In this document: in pieces, positions 26,069 to 31,350 of the stretch
Layout of the letters: each line of letters starts with the position of its first letter
Numbering within the stretch: the first letter of the stretch is position 1
The notes under the pieces: model-generated
Seen by the model: the letters and a program-made list of their open reading frames with translations, nothing else
Databases searched by the model: none
What the model was told of the DNA's origin: nothing
From: Desulfobacterota bacterium AH_259_B03_O07
GTDB lineage: Bacteria; Desulfobacterota_D; UBA1144; Nemesobacterales; CSP1-2
NCBI GenBank assembly: GCA_027717645.1
Contig: JALLOG010000011.1
Coordinates: 1-45,266 of the forward strand
Length of the DNA: 45,266 nt
Direction: 5' to 3'
Made by a program: the position numbers and the translations under genes

Positions 26069-27625
26069 ATGCCTAGAACCAACGATTTGAGCAGGGATCT
26101 CTGGTTAACAAGGACGGGTCTCATCTTGGCTATGGCAGGCAATGCAATAGGCCTAGGTAACTTTTTACGATTTCCTGTCCAAGCCGCGGAAAATGGTGGT
26201 GGGGCCTTTATGGTTCCTTATATAATAGCTTTTTTCTTAATTGGAATACCTCTTATGTGGGTTGAATGGGGAATTGGCAGGTATGGAGGCTCCAGAGGCC
26301 ATGGAACTGCTCCAGCAATTTTTAGTCTTTTATGGAATAATCCTGTTTCAAAGATAATCGGTGTGTTTGGACTATGGATACCTCTCGTGGTTGCTATTTA
26401 TTATATATATATTGAGTCTTGGACATTGGGATATTCCATTCACTTTCTTTTGGGTTCAGGACCGGAACTGGCAAATGGTACGGATATTAATGCAGAAAGT
26501 TATCTAAAGCCTTTTAGTGATTTCCTTTCTAAATACATAGGTGCAGGAGCTGGGGATTATTTTAGCCCTTCGATCATGGCCTATTGCGCATTCATACTAA
26601 CCTTCGCGGTAAATGTGTTTATACTTTTAAGGGGCATTTCTAGGGGTATAGAGATCTTTGCAAAGATAGCACTACCAACATTATTTGTTTTGTCATTGAT
26701 ATTACTTGTAAGGGTCTTGACTCTAAAAACTCCCCAAGGAAGTGCGATTGAGGGACTTAATTTCCTCTGGAATCCAGATCTTAAAGTGCTAAGGTCGCCT
26801 GATGTTTGGATCGCAGCGGCTGGTCAGATTTTTTTCACCTTGAGTCTCGGCTTTGGTGCAATAATTACTTATGCTTCATATATCAGGAAAAATCAAGACA
26901 TCACACTTAGTGGACTTACATCCGCTACGTTAAATGAGACTGTAGAGGTTGTGATCGGGGGGTCGATTGCAATTCCTGCCGCTGTTGCTTTTTTCGGGGT
27001 TGCGGGTGCGGTCACAATAGCTAAGTCTGGGGCTTTTAATCTTGGTTTTGTGAGCCTTCCTGCAATATTTGCTAGTATGCCGGCTGGAGGGTTTTTAGGG
27101 TTTCTTTGGTTTTTTCTACTTTTCTTTGCGGGACTAACTTCTTCGGTAGCACTAACTCAGCCCGTGATAACATTTTTCCAAGATGAGTTTGATTTATCGA
27201 GGAAGAAATCGGTCCTCATCACTTCTGCAATTATACTGATAAGTGTTCCTATGGTTATATTTATGAATCAAGCACTTGACGAGCTGGATTTTTGGGCTGG
27301 GACTATAGCTATTGTAATGTTTGGATTATTGGAAGTTGTAATTTTTATGTGGATATTTGGTGGAGAAAAAGCGTGGGAAGAGATAAATCGTAATGGATTA
27401 ATCAGAGCTCCTAGGATTATTTATTATGTTCTCAGGTATGTAACACCGCTTTACTTGTTGGTCATTTTAGGGGTATGGTATTATAATAAGATACCTACAA
27501 TTCTCGGTGAATCTAACTGGAATATTTGGTGTGCCAGGATATATATACTTGTTCTATTTATTGTATTAACGGTGCTTGTATTCGTAGCTGATAAAAGGAA
27601 ATATAAGGAAAAGCATGGAAATTGA
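26069..27625 (+). CDS. Sodium-dependent transporter, NSS (SNF) family
   Basis: 518 residues with about 11-12 membrane spans. The first span carries the family sodium/substrate motif [25 protein letters not shown], followed by a [11 protein letters not shown] loop. Such symporters move amino acids or related compounds with Na+; the substrate is not predictable. NSS proteins of the methionine/alanine importer type work with a tiny membrane subunit, and a 48-residue single-span gene overlaps the 3' end of this one (27615). Codon use and composition look like the neighbours. Confidence 0.93.
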
Positions 27626-27829: not shown

Positions 27830-28606
27830 TTAATTGCCGTAGAACTTCTTTTCCCATTCTCTTTGGTTTTTCTGTGCTTCTCGAATAGCATGAGTAAATA
27901 TTGCGGCACTGAGGATATATTTGTTTAGGAGGTTAATTGGGAATTTTAAGGGTCTTACGAAATCTACGAATAACACGGCACGATGGCCGGATGTATCATT
28001 CCAAACCTCATGGTTGAATGTGTCGTCAAATATAAGACTTTTCCCTTCTTCCCAATGCTTAACTTCTTGATCGATTCGAATACGACATTTTTCCTTAGGC
28101 TCTGGTACTATCAGTCCAAGGTGGTATCGCAGCACTCCGTTGTAAGGCCCTTTATGCGCCGGAATATGCTTATTAGGCGACAAGATTGAGAAAAAGGCTG
28201 TTTTCATTCCCGGTATTTTTTTCAAAATTCGAGATGTTTCTGGACAGTGTTTGGAATTCATCTCGCTTTCCAACCCATAGCCAGCAAGCATATAGGTCTT
28301 CCAAAGATTGTCGCTTGTAATCGGTTTTACCTCGGCAGTAATGTCATGAAAGTTCGGGAGCTCATCTCTTCGTAGCAAAACTCGATCTAATTCAGCTCGA
28401 ATTCTCTTCCAATCCCGTTCTATTTCAAGTGCCCAGGGAAAAGTCGAGTTGTCATATAAAGGAGGGTTTCCATAGATTGAATACTTCTCAATTAGACCTT
28501 CTATCCAATTTATGAATTTTGAAATAAGTTTAGGAGCGTATCTCTTGTTGGGATTGTATGACTTTCCATGTGCCGGTAAACTCTTGTCTTGATTTAATTC
28601 ATTCAT
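27830..28606 (-). CDS. Aspartyl/asparaginyl beta-hydroxylase-family dioxygenase (AspH/LpxO-like)
   Basis: 258 residues without membrane segments. The C-terminal half has the PF05118-type fold: LSPNKHIPAHKGPYNGVLRYH with metal/2-oxoglutarate-binding residues, then the IFDDTFNHEVWNDTSGHRAV block that supplies the second iron histidine and the 2-oxoglutarate arginine. Family members hydroxylate Asp/Asn in proteins or, as LpxO, the 2-position of lipid A acyl chains. Its position after the CDP-alcohol phosphotransferase suggests a lipid- or headgroup-linked substrate, which is an inference. The gene starts 26 nt after that gene's stop. Confidence 0.85.
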   Translation of the reverse strand: MNELNQDKSLPAHGKSYNPNKRYAPKLISKFINWIEGLIEKYSIYGNPPLYDNSTFPWALEIERDWKRIRAELDRVLLRRDELPNFHDITAEVKPITSDNLWKTYMLAGYGLESEMNSKHCPETSRILKKIPGMKTAFFSILSPNKHIPAHKGPYNGVLRYHLGLIVPEPKEKCRIRIDQEVKHWEEGKSLIFDDTFNHEVWNDTSGHRAVLFVDFVRPLKFPINLLNKYILSAAIFTHAIREAQKNQREWEKKFYGN

Positions 28607-28631
28607 TTAACAACGCCCTTAAATCAATGGG

Positions 28632-29951
28632 TCATTTAAGTGTTGTTTCGGGTTTCAGTTTTTTGAGCATTATTATATCTTCAATTTGATGAATTAGGAA
28701 TAATATAAGAGAAATTGTTATGCACCAGAATACCCAAGGTGATCCTCCAATGATCGCTAACACAAGCAAACCAAGTGAATAGAAGTTTCTTCTACTCATT
28801 GGACGAACATATAATATTAGCTTATGTACTAGGGTCCTTTGCTCCTTAATTATCAGTTTATCTACGTTGAAGTAAGATACCAAGCTGCCCGAATTCGTAT
28901 ACCTGACTAGAAAATAGAAAGACCAGATTAGGAAGAATATAAAAATCCCCAGATTTAACCCACCAAAAACCAAAACTATAGGGTTTCCTGCAACCCCATA
29001 ATATCCGATAGTTACTCCAACTACGAACGAAAGAATCGTTAGCTGATCCGAAATCGTGTCCACCCATTGCCCACGTTTTGTCTCCATAAGTTTTATCCTA
29101 GCTACCTCTCCGTCACATCGATCTAGAACAGTAGCAATCTGTAGACATATGGCGCCCCATACAGGATGTCCAATGGCATAAAATGGACCCGAAAGTACTC
29201 CTATCATATTTGTTAGGACGCTGATCATGTTTGGTGTGAGCGGTGTTCGTATTAGGTATCGACTTACACGTAAAGAAATTTTGCTATTAATATTTCTTGA
29301 AATCCACCCTGTGAGTGTTTTTCCTACGTGGGATATAATGAGTCGTTCTGCTTTTTTGGGCGATGTGGGATCAGATGTGATTCTCATCCAGTAACCATTA
29401 GAAAATTCCGTAAACTTTAGTTTGCCCCCGCCAACTAGCTCTTGAGCCCATGTGTCTAAGGACATCGAATTCATTATAGATTTTTCTAGAAGTCTGCCAG
29501 AAGCGATAAAGGCCCCTACAGCTCTACCTCCACCCAGATATATGTCTTCTATCGATCCGTTATCTGCCTTTAGCCCCGCGTCTTGGGAACGATCCACTAA
29601 CAACAGGATTTCATCGTTTTTAACAGAGCATTTCATGAATTCTGAAAGCGCAACGGGGGTAGTTACGAGATTTGACTGAAGAACTAATGACGGGCTTGAC
29701 TCAAATTTTACTGGTTTTCCAAGCTTATGCCACTCTATTTCGCTATCTATGCGTTTGTCGTTAATTAATAGGTCTTTAAGGGGACTATCAAGGGTATCCG
29801 TGATAATTGAAAATCTTTTTATTCCAGCTCTCTGTGCGGTAATGATTAGTCGTTTAACTTGGGGTACTGATCCAAAAACTATATTTCCAAACGAGCTGAG
29901 ATCCTCTCCGTCTAAGCCTGTGCCGGCCGCTACTAATATTGCGTGATCCAT
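28632..29951 (-). CDS. CDP-alcohol phosphotransferase with nucleotidyltransferase-like N-terminus
   Basis: 439 residues. The C-terminal membrane domain (about 225-435, several spans) has the full catalytic motif D-x2-DG-x2-AR-x8-G-x3-D-x3-D in DRCDGEVARIKLMETKRGQW plus VDTISD. It would transfer a phospho-alcohol from a CDP-linked donor to an acceptor, or a CDP-lipid to an alcohol. The N-terminal about 210 residues have a nucleotidyltransferase-like layout (ILVAAGTG, then PQVKRLIITAQRAGIKR) but lack the usual GxGxR...KP signature, so this half is probably inactive. The fusion resembles bifunctional IPCT/DIPP synthases of inositol-phosphate pathways. It follows the separate, intact nucleotidyltransferase gene after 4 nt. 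Confidence 0.88.
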   Translation of the reverse strand: MDHAILVAAGTGLDGEDLSSFGNIVFGSVPQVKRLIITAQRAGIKRFSIITDTLDSPLKDLLINDKRIDSEIEWHKLGKPVKFESSPSLVLQSNLVTTPVALSEFMKCSVKNDEILLLVDRSQDAGLKADNGSIEDIYLGGGRAVGAFIASGRLLEKSIMNSMSLDTWAQELVGGGKLKFTEFSNGYWMRITSDPTSPKKAERLIISHVGKTLTGWISRNINSKISLRVSRYLIRTPLTPNMISVLTNMIGVLSGPFYAIGHPVWGAICLQIATVLDRCDGEVARIKLMETKRGQWVDTISDQLTILSFVVGVTIGYYGVAGNPIVLVFGGLNLGIFIFFLIWSFYFLVRYTNSGSLVSYFNVDKLIIKEQRTLVHKLILYVRPMSRRNFYSLGLLVLAIIGGSPWVFWCITISLILFLIHQIEDIIMLKKLKPETTLK

Positions 29952-29955
29952 TTTA

Positions 29956-30729
29956 TCAATTTGAATCTACGACACGAAGGAACCTTTCCGGATATGGTTT
30001 GTTGAGAAATTTGTTAGAATTAAATCTGGCTTTAAAAAGGTCACTGGGATAATCTACATCCATCCAAAATAAATCCTGGATATCTAGAGATTTTACCTTG
30101 TAGCCTTTTTTAATTAAGCGATGTATGGAAGATATATACCACTTTTTTTCTGCTCCTTCTATTCTCATCTCCTCTTCGATTGCTCTCCTAAGAAATTCAA
30201 CCCCCGTGTCTCTAAAGACTCTGATTCCTACAGATTCGGCAGAAGAACGGTTCGTAAGTGTCTTACCTATTTCGATTATCCTTTTTCCTCTCATATGAAC
30301 CTTCATATCTTCTTCTTCATATAATGATTTAATTTTTATAGGTAAACAAATTTTCTCATCTCTTGTTGCTAGGGCCTGTTCAAGAACCTCGATCTCAAAT
30401 ACATCATCCCCATTCATTACAACAATATCCCCATCCATTTCTCCTCTTGCTATCCAAAGTGAAATTAAGCTATTGGTGGTTTGATAAAAGGGATTATAAA
30501 CGGTTTTTACTTTCATTCCTAAGCTATCGTAATTTCTAAGAAAGTTCTCAACCTTTTCAAATCCAAATCCAATCACAATTATGACTTCGTCAATTCCACA
30601 ATCTCTTATATGATTTATTTGATGTTCAAGTATAGTTTCCCCACCGATGTCTAGAAGGCACTTAGGTATGTATTTAGTATATGGATACAACCTCTTGCCT
30701 CTGCCTGCTGCAAGTATCACTGCTTTCAT
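29956..30729 (-). CDS. Sugar/alcohol-phosphate nucleotidyltransferase
   Basis: 257 residues. The N-terminal motif AVILAAGRGKRLYPYTKYIP with KCLLDIGG is the intact NTP-binding loop and conserved lysine of the nucleotidyltransferase family. YNPFYQTTNSLISLWIARG and the metal-binding IVVMNGDDVF are of the phosphocholine/inositol-phosphate cytidylyltransferase-like subgroup, and the late DLFWMDVDYPSDL block supplies a second metal aspartate. It should activate a phospho-alcohol or sugar phosphate as an NDP (probably CDP) derivative. It heads the three-gene operon behind the promoter at 30853-30881. The true substrate is unknown. Confidence 0.9.
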   Translation of the reverse strand: MKAVILAAGRGKRLYPYTKYIPKCLLDIGGETILEHQINHIRDCGIDEVIIVIGFGFEKVENFLRNYDSLGMKVKTVYNPFYQTTNSLISLWIARGEMDGDIVVMNGDDVFEIEVLEQALATRDEKICLPIKIKSLYEEEDMKVHMRGKRIIEIGKTLTNRSSAESVGIRVFRDTGVEFLRRAIEEEMRIEGAEKKWYISSIHRLIKKGYKVKSLDIQDLFWMDVDYPSDLFKARFNSNKFLNKPYPERFLRVVDSN

Positions 30730-30786
30730 GTTATCTTCTCCGTTTTATTAGGAGAATTTCTACCCTGTTCGTGATTAATTAGAAAT

Positions 30787-30825
30787 TCAAAAGGGGGCCA
30801 ATTGAGATAAAACTTCAGCAATCAC
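30787..30825 (-). other. Possible 12-residue leader peptide
   Basis: GTG 30825 is preceded by a very strong GGAGGAGG tract and opens a frame VIAEVLSQLAPF before a TGA. It lies in the 5' leader between the promoter at 30853-30881 and the nucleotidyltransferase gene. The ribosome-binding site is much stronger than that of the main gene, so a translated leader is possible. Chance cannot be excluded for so short a frame. Confidence 0.25.
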
Positions 30826-30852
30826 CCTACCTCCTCCTTTTTATAGCTTACA

Positions 30853-30881
30853 TTTATAACCTCCTTAAAAGCTTATGTCAA
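30853..30881 (-). promoter_or_regulatory. Near-consensus promoter of the phospho-alcohol cassette
   Basis: On the minus strand TTGACA (30876-30881), exactly 17 nt of spacer and TATAAA (30853-30858). This is among the best promoters in the window and separates the three-gene cassette from the pan operon. The leader is about 120 nt long. Confidence 0.75.
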
Positions 30882-30947: not shown

Positions 30948-31337
30948 TCAGCTCTTTGCGACTCTTAATTTTTTTCGTTTGCTCTTTATCTTCTTTATTC
31001 TATTCTTATCATCAACGTAAACCAGTTTAGGTTCGTGTTCCCCGAATTCATCTTCATCATATGACGAAAAGCTAGCGATTATGAGGGAATCGCCTTCTCT
31101 AGCTAGATGAGCTGCGGCACCATTCACACAAATTTCATTTGAGCCTTGCCTACCTTCAATGACGTACGTGGAGAATCTGTGTCCATTTGTAACGTTAAAG
31201 ATATCAACCTTCTCATATGGAATTAAATCAGCCGCTGCCATTAAATCTTTATCTACAGTAATGCTTCCTTCGTATTCAATGTTGGCTTGTGTAACCGTAG
31301 CTCGATGAATTTTTGATTTAAGAAGCGTTCTTTCTAT
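30948..31337 (-). CDS. panD: Aspartate 1-decarboxylase with apparent ATA start
   Basis: 129 residues counted from ATA 31337. It makes beta-alanine and matures by self-cleavage to a pyruvoyl enzyme. Aligned with E. coli numbering, the key residues fall exactly in place: Lys9, the cleavage site Gly24-Ser25 (EYEGS), Arg54, Thr57 and Tyr58 ([11 protein letters not shown]). The first in-frame ATG (31241) is at codon 33, past the cleavage site, and cannot be the start. Upstream of it the frame is open to a TAA at 31359-31361 but has no ATG, GTG or TTG. AAGGAGG (31346-31352) lies 8 nt before ATA, whose codon aligns with the usual Met1 ([16 protein letters not shown]). It follows panC by 13 nt. Confidence 0.92.
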
Positions 31338-31350
31338 TTTCTTTGCCTCC

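Follow-up and report, generated by a model that had tools for sequence, protein, structure and literature searches.

What does a bacterium make with a nucleotidyltransferase, a CDP-alcohol phosphotransferase and an iron/2-oxoglutarate hydroxylase that are encoded side by side? The question is raised by three genes in a 45,266-nt stretch of DNA (contig JALLOG010000011.1, hereafter the window) of Desulfobacterota bacterium AH_259_B03_O07, a metagenome-assembled genome of Candidatus Dadabacteria. To our knowledge, the Dadabacteria are known only from metagenomes. The three open reading frames are co-directional on the minus strand in the order NTP (the nucleotidyltransferase), CAPT (the CDP-alcohol phosphotransferase fusion) and hydroxylase (Table 1). 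A preliminary description had read them as one cassette for the synthesis of a CDP-linked phospho-alcohol, its transfer to a lipid or inositol-type acceptor and a hydroxylation. The case for NTP and CAPT as a CDP-alcohol pathway pair is strong, whereas the hydroxylase is not a constant member.

The locus was compared within a class sample of 58 genomes (G000–G057; some counts cover 61 genomes). A strong CAPT match was found in 55 of the 58, the exceptions being G023, G037 (77% complete) and G043 (59% complete). In all loci that were read, those of the marine genomes of ≈1 Mb included, NTP stands immediately ahead of CAPT at a distance of 0–12 nt, and retention of the pair even in such small genomes speaks for a membrane component of importance. 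The hydroxylase is present in 22/58 genomes and was not found in the marine 1-Mb family, genus g11 and several other lineages of the sample. The locus is therefore best seen as a conserved pair with an accessory third gene, and the expectation that all three genes would be conserved together holds for NTP and CAPT only.

NTP has an intact active site. The GxGxR and PK signature and the metal Asp residues typical of active NTP/sugar-phosphate nucleotidyltransferases (R13, K23, D108, D224, and D226) are invariant among 13 homologs, and the Pfam NTP_transferase model matches with 53 bits (cut-off 21.2). LicC is the closest PDB entry by sequence. When the predicted model (pLDDT 89.6) was compared with known structures, PntC, IPCT and LicC were about equal, with PntC-AEPT on top and 4jd0 and 2xme among the matches. 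The top NCBIfam model is Arch_glmU from the sugar-1-phosphate family (104.9 bits, under the cut-off of 292), and the protein carries an NGD motif. NTP is a member of the LicC/IPCT/PntC group.

CAPT combines an intact transferase domain with an N-terminal domain that appears inactive. The motif D277xxDGxxAR...GxxxDxxxD302, which corresponds to D1xxD2G1xxAR...G2xxxD3xxxD4 of transmembrane helices 2 and 3, is invariant among 14 homologs, and PF01066 matches with 39.9 bits (cut-off 22). The best structural match of the AlphaFold model (pLDDT 82.4) is the Archaeoglobus IPCT-DIPPS 4mnd, which aligns end to end (455 columns, TM-score 0.67/0.71), followed by AF2299. The nearest NCBIfam model is also that of the bifunctional IPCT-DIPPS (NF041135), but with 95.3 bits CAPT stays below its cut-off of 580 and does not have both domains intact. 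The N-terminal domain (about residues 1–205) retains an NTP-transferase-like fold, but the Arg and Lys of the signature are gone and the metal Asp sites are occupied by Asn and Arg/Thr; judged by these residues it is a pseudo-nucleotidyltransferase. Its mean pairwise identity is 0.32 vs. 0.54 for the CAPT domain, and such faster evolution would be anticipated where catalysis no longer constrains a domain. A second fused NTP-CAPT protein with a more intact NTP signature is encoded in the same genome (L049, 5039–6352, minus strand, G000:C52); it is IPCT-DIPPS-like with 319 bits against the same cut-off.

The third protein matches Asp_Arg_Hydrox (PF05118) with 182.6 bits (cut-off 22.6). Residues H151, H199, and R209 align with the iron/2-oxoglutarate positions of AspH, and we take them to be the two-His iron site and the 2-oxoglutarate Arg that mark the AspH/LpxO/OlsC superfamily. 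The protein is nearer to OlsC (NF052565, 350.5 bits over residues 26–257) than to LpxO (126.8 bits, cut-off 500), although it falls short of the OlsC equivalog cut-off of 450 bits. The three enzyme assignments of the preliminary description thus hold, as does its view that the active site is intact in NTP and the signature lost in the N-terminal domain of CAPT; both proteins were modelled, as it had proposed.

How might these enzymes work together? Our preferred reading is a CDP-alcohol (Kennedy-type) pathway for a lipid head group. NTP would react CTP with the phosphate of an alcohol, for which a polyol is the likeliest choice (L-myo-inositol-1-phosphate, for example), to give a CDP-alcohol. 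The membrane enzyme CAPT would then transfer the phospho-alcohol to an acceptor hydroxyl, in all likelihood that of a neutral lipid (diacylglycerol, for example), while its pseudo-NTP domain may be a structural or docking leftover from an ancestor that resembled IPCT-DIPPS. The OlsC-like hydroxylase, in the lineages that have it (the present one among them), would hydroxylate one of the acyl chains of this lipid. Sequence and structure establish the families, the state of the active sites, the gene linkage, its conservation and the promoter, whereas the identity of the alcohol, the acceptor, the lipid nature of the Dadabacterial product and the target of the hydroxylase are inferences. We regard this complete three-step scheme as a serious possibility, if not yet a probable one.

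Several observations weigh against it. The TNSLxSL motif of NTP is LicC-like and not IPCT-like, and W197 and Y198, which like W222 are invariant, could form an aromatic choline pocket. The gene for inositol-1-phosphate synthase (MIPS) lies outside the NTP/CAPT locus, and these genomes contain a further CAPT, similar to PIP/archaetidylinositol-phosphate synthase (149.6 bits, cut-off 180), that could consume inositol-1-phosphate. A Glu/His pair has been proposed to activate diacylglycerol in eukaryotic CHPT1; CAPT does not have it, and nor do most bacterial CAPTs (PMC10182977). The invariant Arg383 of CAPT aligns with the second PIP-synthase Arg (RsPIPS R191), and neither Af2299 nor the AfDIPP synthase processes lipids (PMC4634129). 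Finally, the lipid-export cluster described below is found in other phyla, with none at the Dadabacterial locus.

The choline-like features of NTP, together with LicC as its best PDB sequence match, would fit a CDP-choline or CDP-ethanolamine Kennedy pathway that leads to phosphatidylcholine or phosphatidylethanolamine. The metal site of PntC and LicC is flanked by an acidic residue placed for holding the amine (PMC6697681), whereas NTP has M105-N106 at this position, which favors a neutral polyol. Choline_kinase is over its cut-off in only 1/61 genomes, and no APH/choline kinase match was obtained in several near-complete genomes with the pair, e.g., G010 and G011; a LicC phosphocholine cytidylyltransferase would be accompanied by such a kinase, of the LicA type. 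Phosphatidylethanolamine would moreover be available by the Psd route in 58/61 genomes. With no kinase match in many genomes the choline route is disfavored, and we hold this choline or ethanolamine version of the Kennedy pathway to be quite improbable. The top fold match, PntC-AEPT, could instead suggest a phosphonolipid pathway in which 2-aminoethylphosphonate is activated by a PntC-like enzyme. This is extremely improbable, as the amine-binding Glu is missing in NTP and the PEP mutase family was not found in G010, G014 and 13 of the 14 streamlined marine genomes (family f8) that carry the pair; PEP mutase is thus not co-distributed with it, and the phosphonolipid route was rejected.

The donor might also be CDP-glycerol, a CDP-sugar or the CDP derivative of another polyol, in which case a glycerophospho- or glycophospho-lipid would result. 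AF2299 accommodates CDP-glycerol, and both the NGD motif and the sub-threshold Arch_glmU match of NTP are in line with such a donor. The CAPT domain, however, scores highest with the CDP-inositol enzyme model, and we consider this alternative unlikely. Inositol remains the leading candidate on circumstantial grounds, not a finding. For NTP as a CTP:inositol-1-phosphate cytidylyltransferase these grounds are its fold match to 4jd0 and 2xme and the distribution of MIPS. MIPS is present in 53/58 class genomes, including streamlined ones, yet its value as evidence, and still more as proof, is weakened by the PIP-synthase-like CAPT that could use the same substrate. A literature search returned no paper on Dadabacterial inositol lipids.

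The acceptor site gives a further hint. In RsPIPS, R153 and R191 bind inositol phosphate, with R153 contacting the phosphate of the acceptor (PMC4634129). Where a PIP synthase has these two Arg residues, CAPT has an invariant Gly355, within an SGS motif, and Arg383, in an alignment of low identity whose numbering was inferred via PIP-synthase-like relatives. Gly355 in place of the phosphate-binding Arg hints at an unphosphorylated acceptor, and at nothing further. The SGS motif is shared with homologs from Gemmatimonadota and Latescibacterota. In these phyla the homologous pair heads a repeated cluster with LPG_synthase_TM, OEP (TolC-like), DUF3047, MlaC, and MMPL, which looks like an undescribed system for lipid synthesis and export. 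Since these neighbors fit lipid handling or export, they suggest a lipid product for the pair. The cluster (L095–L099, L102, L104, L105, L107–L109, and L114) also contains a TPR/FG-GAP protein and a divergent second CAPT-like gene and NTP.

A soluble phosphodiester solute, resembling di-inositol-phosphate or glycero-phospho-inositol, would be made instead if the acceptor were a small polyol or polyol phosphate, as for DIPP synthase. Lipids are not processed by the enzymes of the closest solved structures (IPCT-DIPPS and AF2299), of which AF2299 binds CDP-glycerol, and the invariant Arg383 would fit such an acceptor. The other phosphate-binding Arg is, however, replaced by the invariant Gly, the pair sits with MlaC, MMPL and LPG_synthase_TM in other phyla, the downstream hydroxylase comes from a lipid-acting subfamily, and the intact IPCT-DIPPS-like fusion L049 is encoded separately in the same genome. 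We therefore judge a soluble product to be rather unlikely and a lipid the better reading.

It could be argued that the hydroxylase is unrelated to the product of the pair, a mere passenger with ornithine lipid, lipid A or ceramide as its substrate. Among NCBIfam models it comes closest to OlsC, most of the other 36 class genomes have the pair but no hydroxylase, and stand-alone paralogs occur in G000, G004, and G005. Yet in all 21 genomes in which both genes are on one contig, the hydroxylase lies directly after CAPT and is read from the same strand; in the 22nd genome (G023) the contig stops 129 nt past the hydroxylase. A full-length OlsB-like match is present in G000, but not in the hydroxylase-bearing G002, G005, G017, G020, G021, and G029, and a long PilZ-AOS (alpha-oxoamine synthase) gene is missing from many genomes that carry the hydroxylase. 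Most members of the hydroxylase-bearing genus g13 lack both. Since neither distribution tracks the hydroxylase, neither ornithine lipid nor ceramide explains where it occurs, and both were set aside as likely targets. We find the passenger alternative unlikely, though worth keeping in mind; the simplest reading is that the hydroxylase acts on the NTP/CAPT product.

The stand-alone OlsC-like paralogs lie among unrelated genes and without the pair (L132, 7066–7869; L133, 5100–5924; L134, 6318–7103). The long AOS gene of G000 (L137, 4876–7668, minus strand, G000:C705) encodes a 930-aa protein with PilZ-like and alpha-oxoamine synthase parts and a GNAT-like C-terminus (PilZ and GNAT read by eye). 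It lies beside histidine-kinase genes and is possibly sphingolipid-related. A short AOS protein was considered as a serine palmitoyltransferase, but looks like BioF instead, since its neighbors are a BioA-like gene and, by position, likely BioB (read by eye).

The genes are closely packed behind a sigma-70-type promoter. The NTP–CAPT gap is 4 nt as first described, whereas the CAPT–hydroxylase gap given as 26 nt is 25 nt from the coordinates of the reading frames. The near-consensus promoter reported ahead of the three genes was found again, and in most relatives tested the panD–NTP gap holds TTGACA or TTGACT, 17 nt, and TATAAA or TATAAC. When the 218-nt gap was shuffled 1000 times with its dinucleotides kept, 8 shuffles also scored at least 11/12, and the promoter is therefore backed far more by conservation than by score. 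The leader carries AAAGGAGGA near its 5' end and an anti-SD-like CCTTCT just ahead of the Shine-Dalgarno (SD) sequence of NTP (GCGGAGAGG), with which it could pair. A search of the leader against Rfam gave no match, covariation support was nil and fold energies were mostly ordinary; the idea of a riboswitch was dropped on these grounds.

Table 1. Features at the NTP–CAPT–hydroxylase locus (positions in the window).
Feature	Position	Strand	Remarks
NTP (LicC/IPCT-like nucleotidyltransferase)	29956..30729	minus	257 aa; catalytic residues intact
CAPT (CDP-alcohol phosphotransferase fusion)	28632..29951	minus	439 aa; putative pseudo-NTP N-terminal domain and CAPT domain with six transmembrane helices
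AspH/OlsC-type iron/2-oxoglutarate hydroxylase	27830..28606	minus	258 aa; accessory third gene
Sigma-70-type promoter	30853..30881 (reads 30881-30853)	minus	TTGACA-17-TATAAA; position and sequence conserved across much of the class
Transcript leader	30727..30852	minus	About 120 nt; between promoter and NTP; alike in most hydroxylase-bearing lineages
panD	30948-31340	minus
Sodium-dependent (SNF) transporter gene	26069-27625	plus	Flanks the other side of the trio; position kept in many relatives

The genes panB-panC-panD lie just upstream of the pair in most loci, with panD missing from this place in two genera (L039/L059/L060 and L040/L062). In the window, panD has no canonical in-frame start before the Gly-Ser cleavage site. 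The codon at the start position suggested by SD spacing is ATA, against ATG or GTG in relatives and ATT in L044; either the start codon is a rare one or the assembly is in error.

Of the pathway first proposed, alcohol activation and transfer by the NTP/CAPT pair stand and a lipid-linked context is seen in other phyla, while the constant three-gene unit does not. A wider picture can be drawn more tentatively: an undescribed phospho-polyol membrane lipid might be class-wide and near-essential in Dadabacteria, made by a stand-alone cytidylyltransferase and a pseudo-domain CAPT and acyl-hydroxylated where the third gene is present, and the pair of Gemmatimonadota and Latescibacterota might feed a dedicated MlaC/MMPL/TolC-like lipid export. 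We put this forward as a possibility that is less likely than not. As other uncultured phyla have the pair at the head of a cluster of lipid-export type, a single enzyme assay could assign the head group in several phyla. The locus is also a clear example of a CAPT in which the fused nucleotidyltransferase has apparently turned pseudo-enzyme, with the chemistry left to a separate gene.

That no described pathway has exactly this set, as the preliminary description stated, is still true of the set itself, but not of its parts, as the fused architecture was known (AF2299 and IPCT-DIPPS) and a related inositol-lipid route with an NTP transferase and a CAPT had been proposed for Bacteroidetes (PMC9246714). 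IPCT-DIPPS (4mnd; NF041135) is nearest to the CAPT domain in sequence and fold, and likewise joins an N-terminal NTP-transferase-type domain to a CAPT domain with six transmembrane helices. The Dadabacterial CAPT differs in that its NTP domain is no longer catalytically equipped, while an active NTP is encoded by a gene of its own upstream; it also has Gly at the PIP-synthase Arg position and scores far under the family cut-off. AF2299 (4o6m/4o6n/4q7c) too is a CAPT with an N-terminal cytidylyltransferase-like extramembrane domain, but it is archaeal, lipid processing has not been reported for it, and its acceptor-site motif is different. We know of no neighboring NTP and hydroxylase set for AF2299.

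The alternative inositol-lipid cluster of Bacteroidetes contains MIPS, an NTP transferase, a CAPT and a HAD protein, for which a CDP-inositol route has been proposed (PMC9246714). It shares a stand-alone NTP transferase and a CAPT with the Dadabacterial locus, which has no HAD phosphatase or MIPS, carries a pseudo-NTP domain on CAPT, has the hydroxylase in addition and adjoins the pan genes. OlsC, the ornithine-lipid acyl 2-hydroxylase, belongs to the same Asp/Asn-hydroxylase subfamily as the Dadabacterial enzyme, which in contrast stays below the OlsC cut-off, lies beside CAPT and is also found in genomes that have no full-length match to OlsB. LicC and PntC share with NTP the fold, the signature and, for LicC, the TN(S/N)xxSL motif, whereas NTP lacks both accompanying lic or ppm genes and the conserved acidic amine-binding residue. 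The enzyme families are thus known; the three-gene arrangement and its product are undescribed, and its core pair is conserved across an uncultured class.

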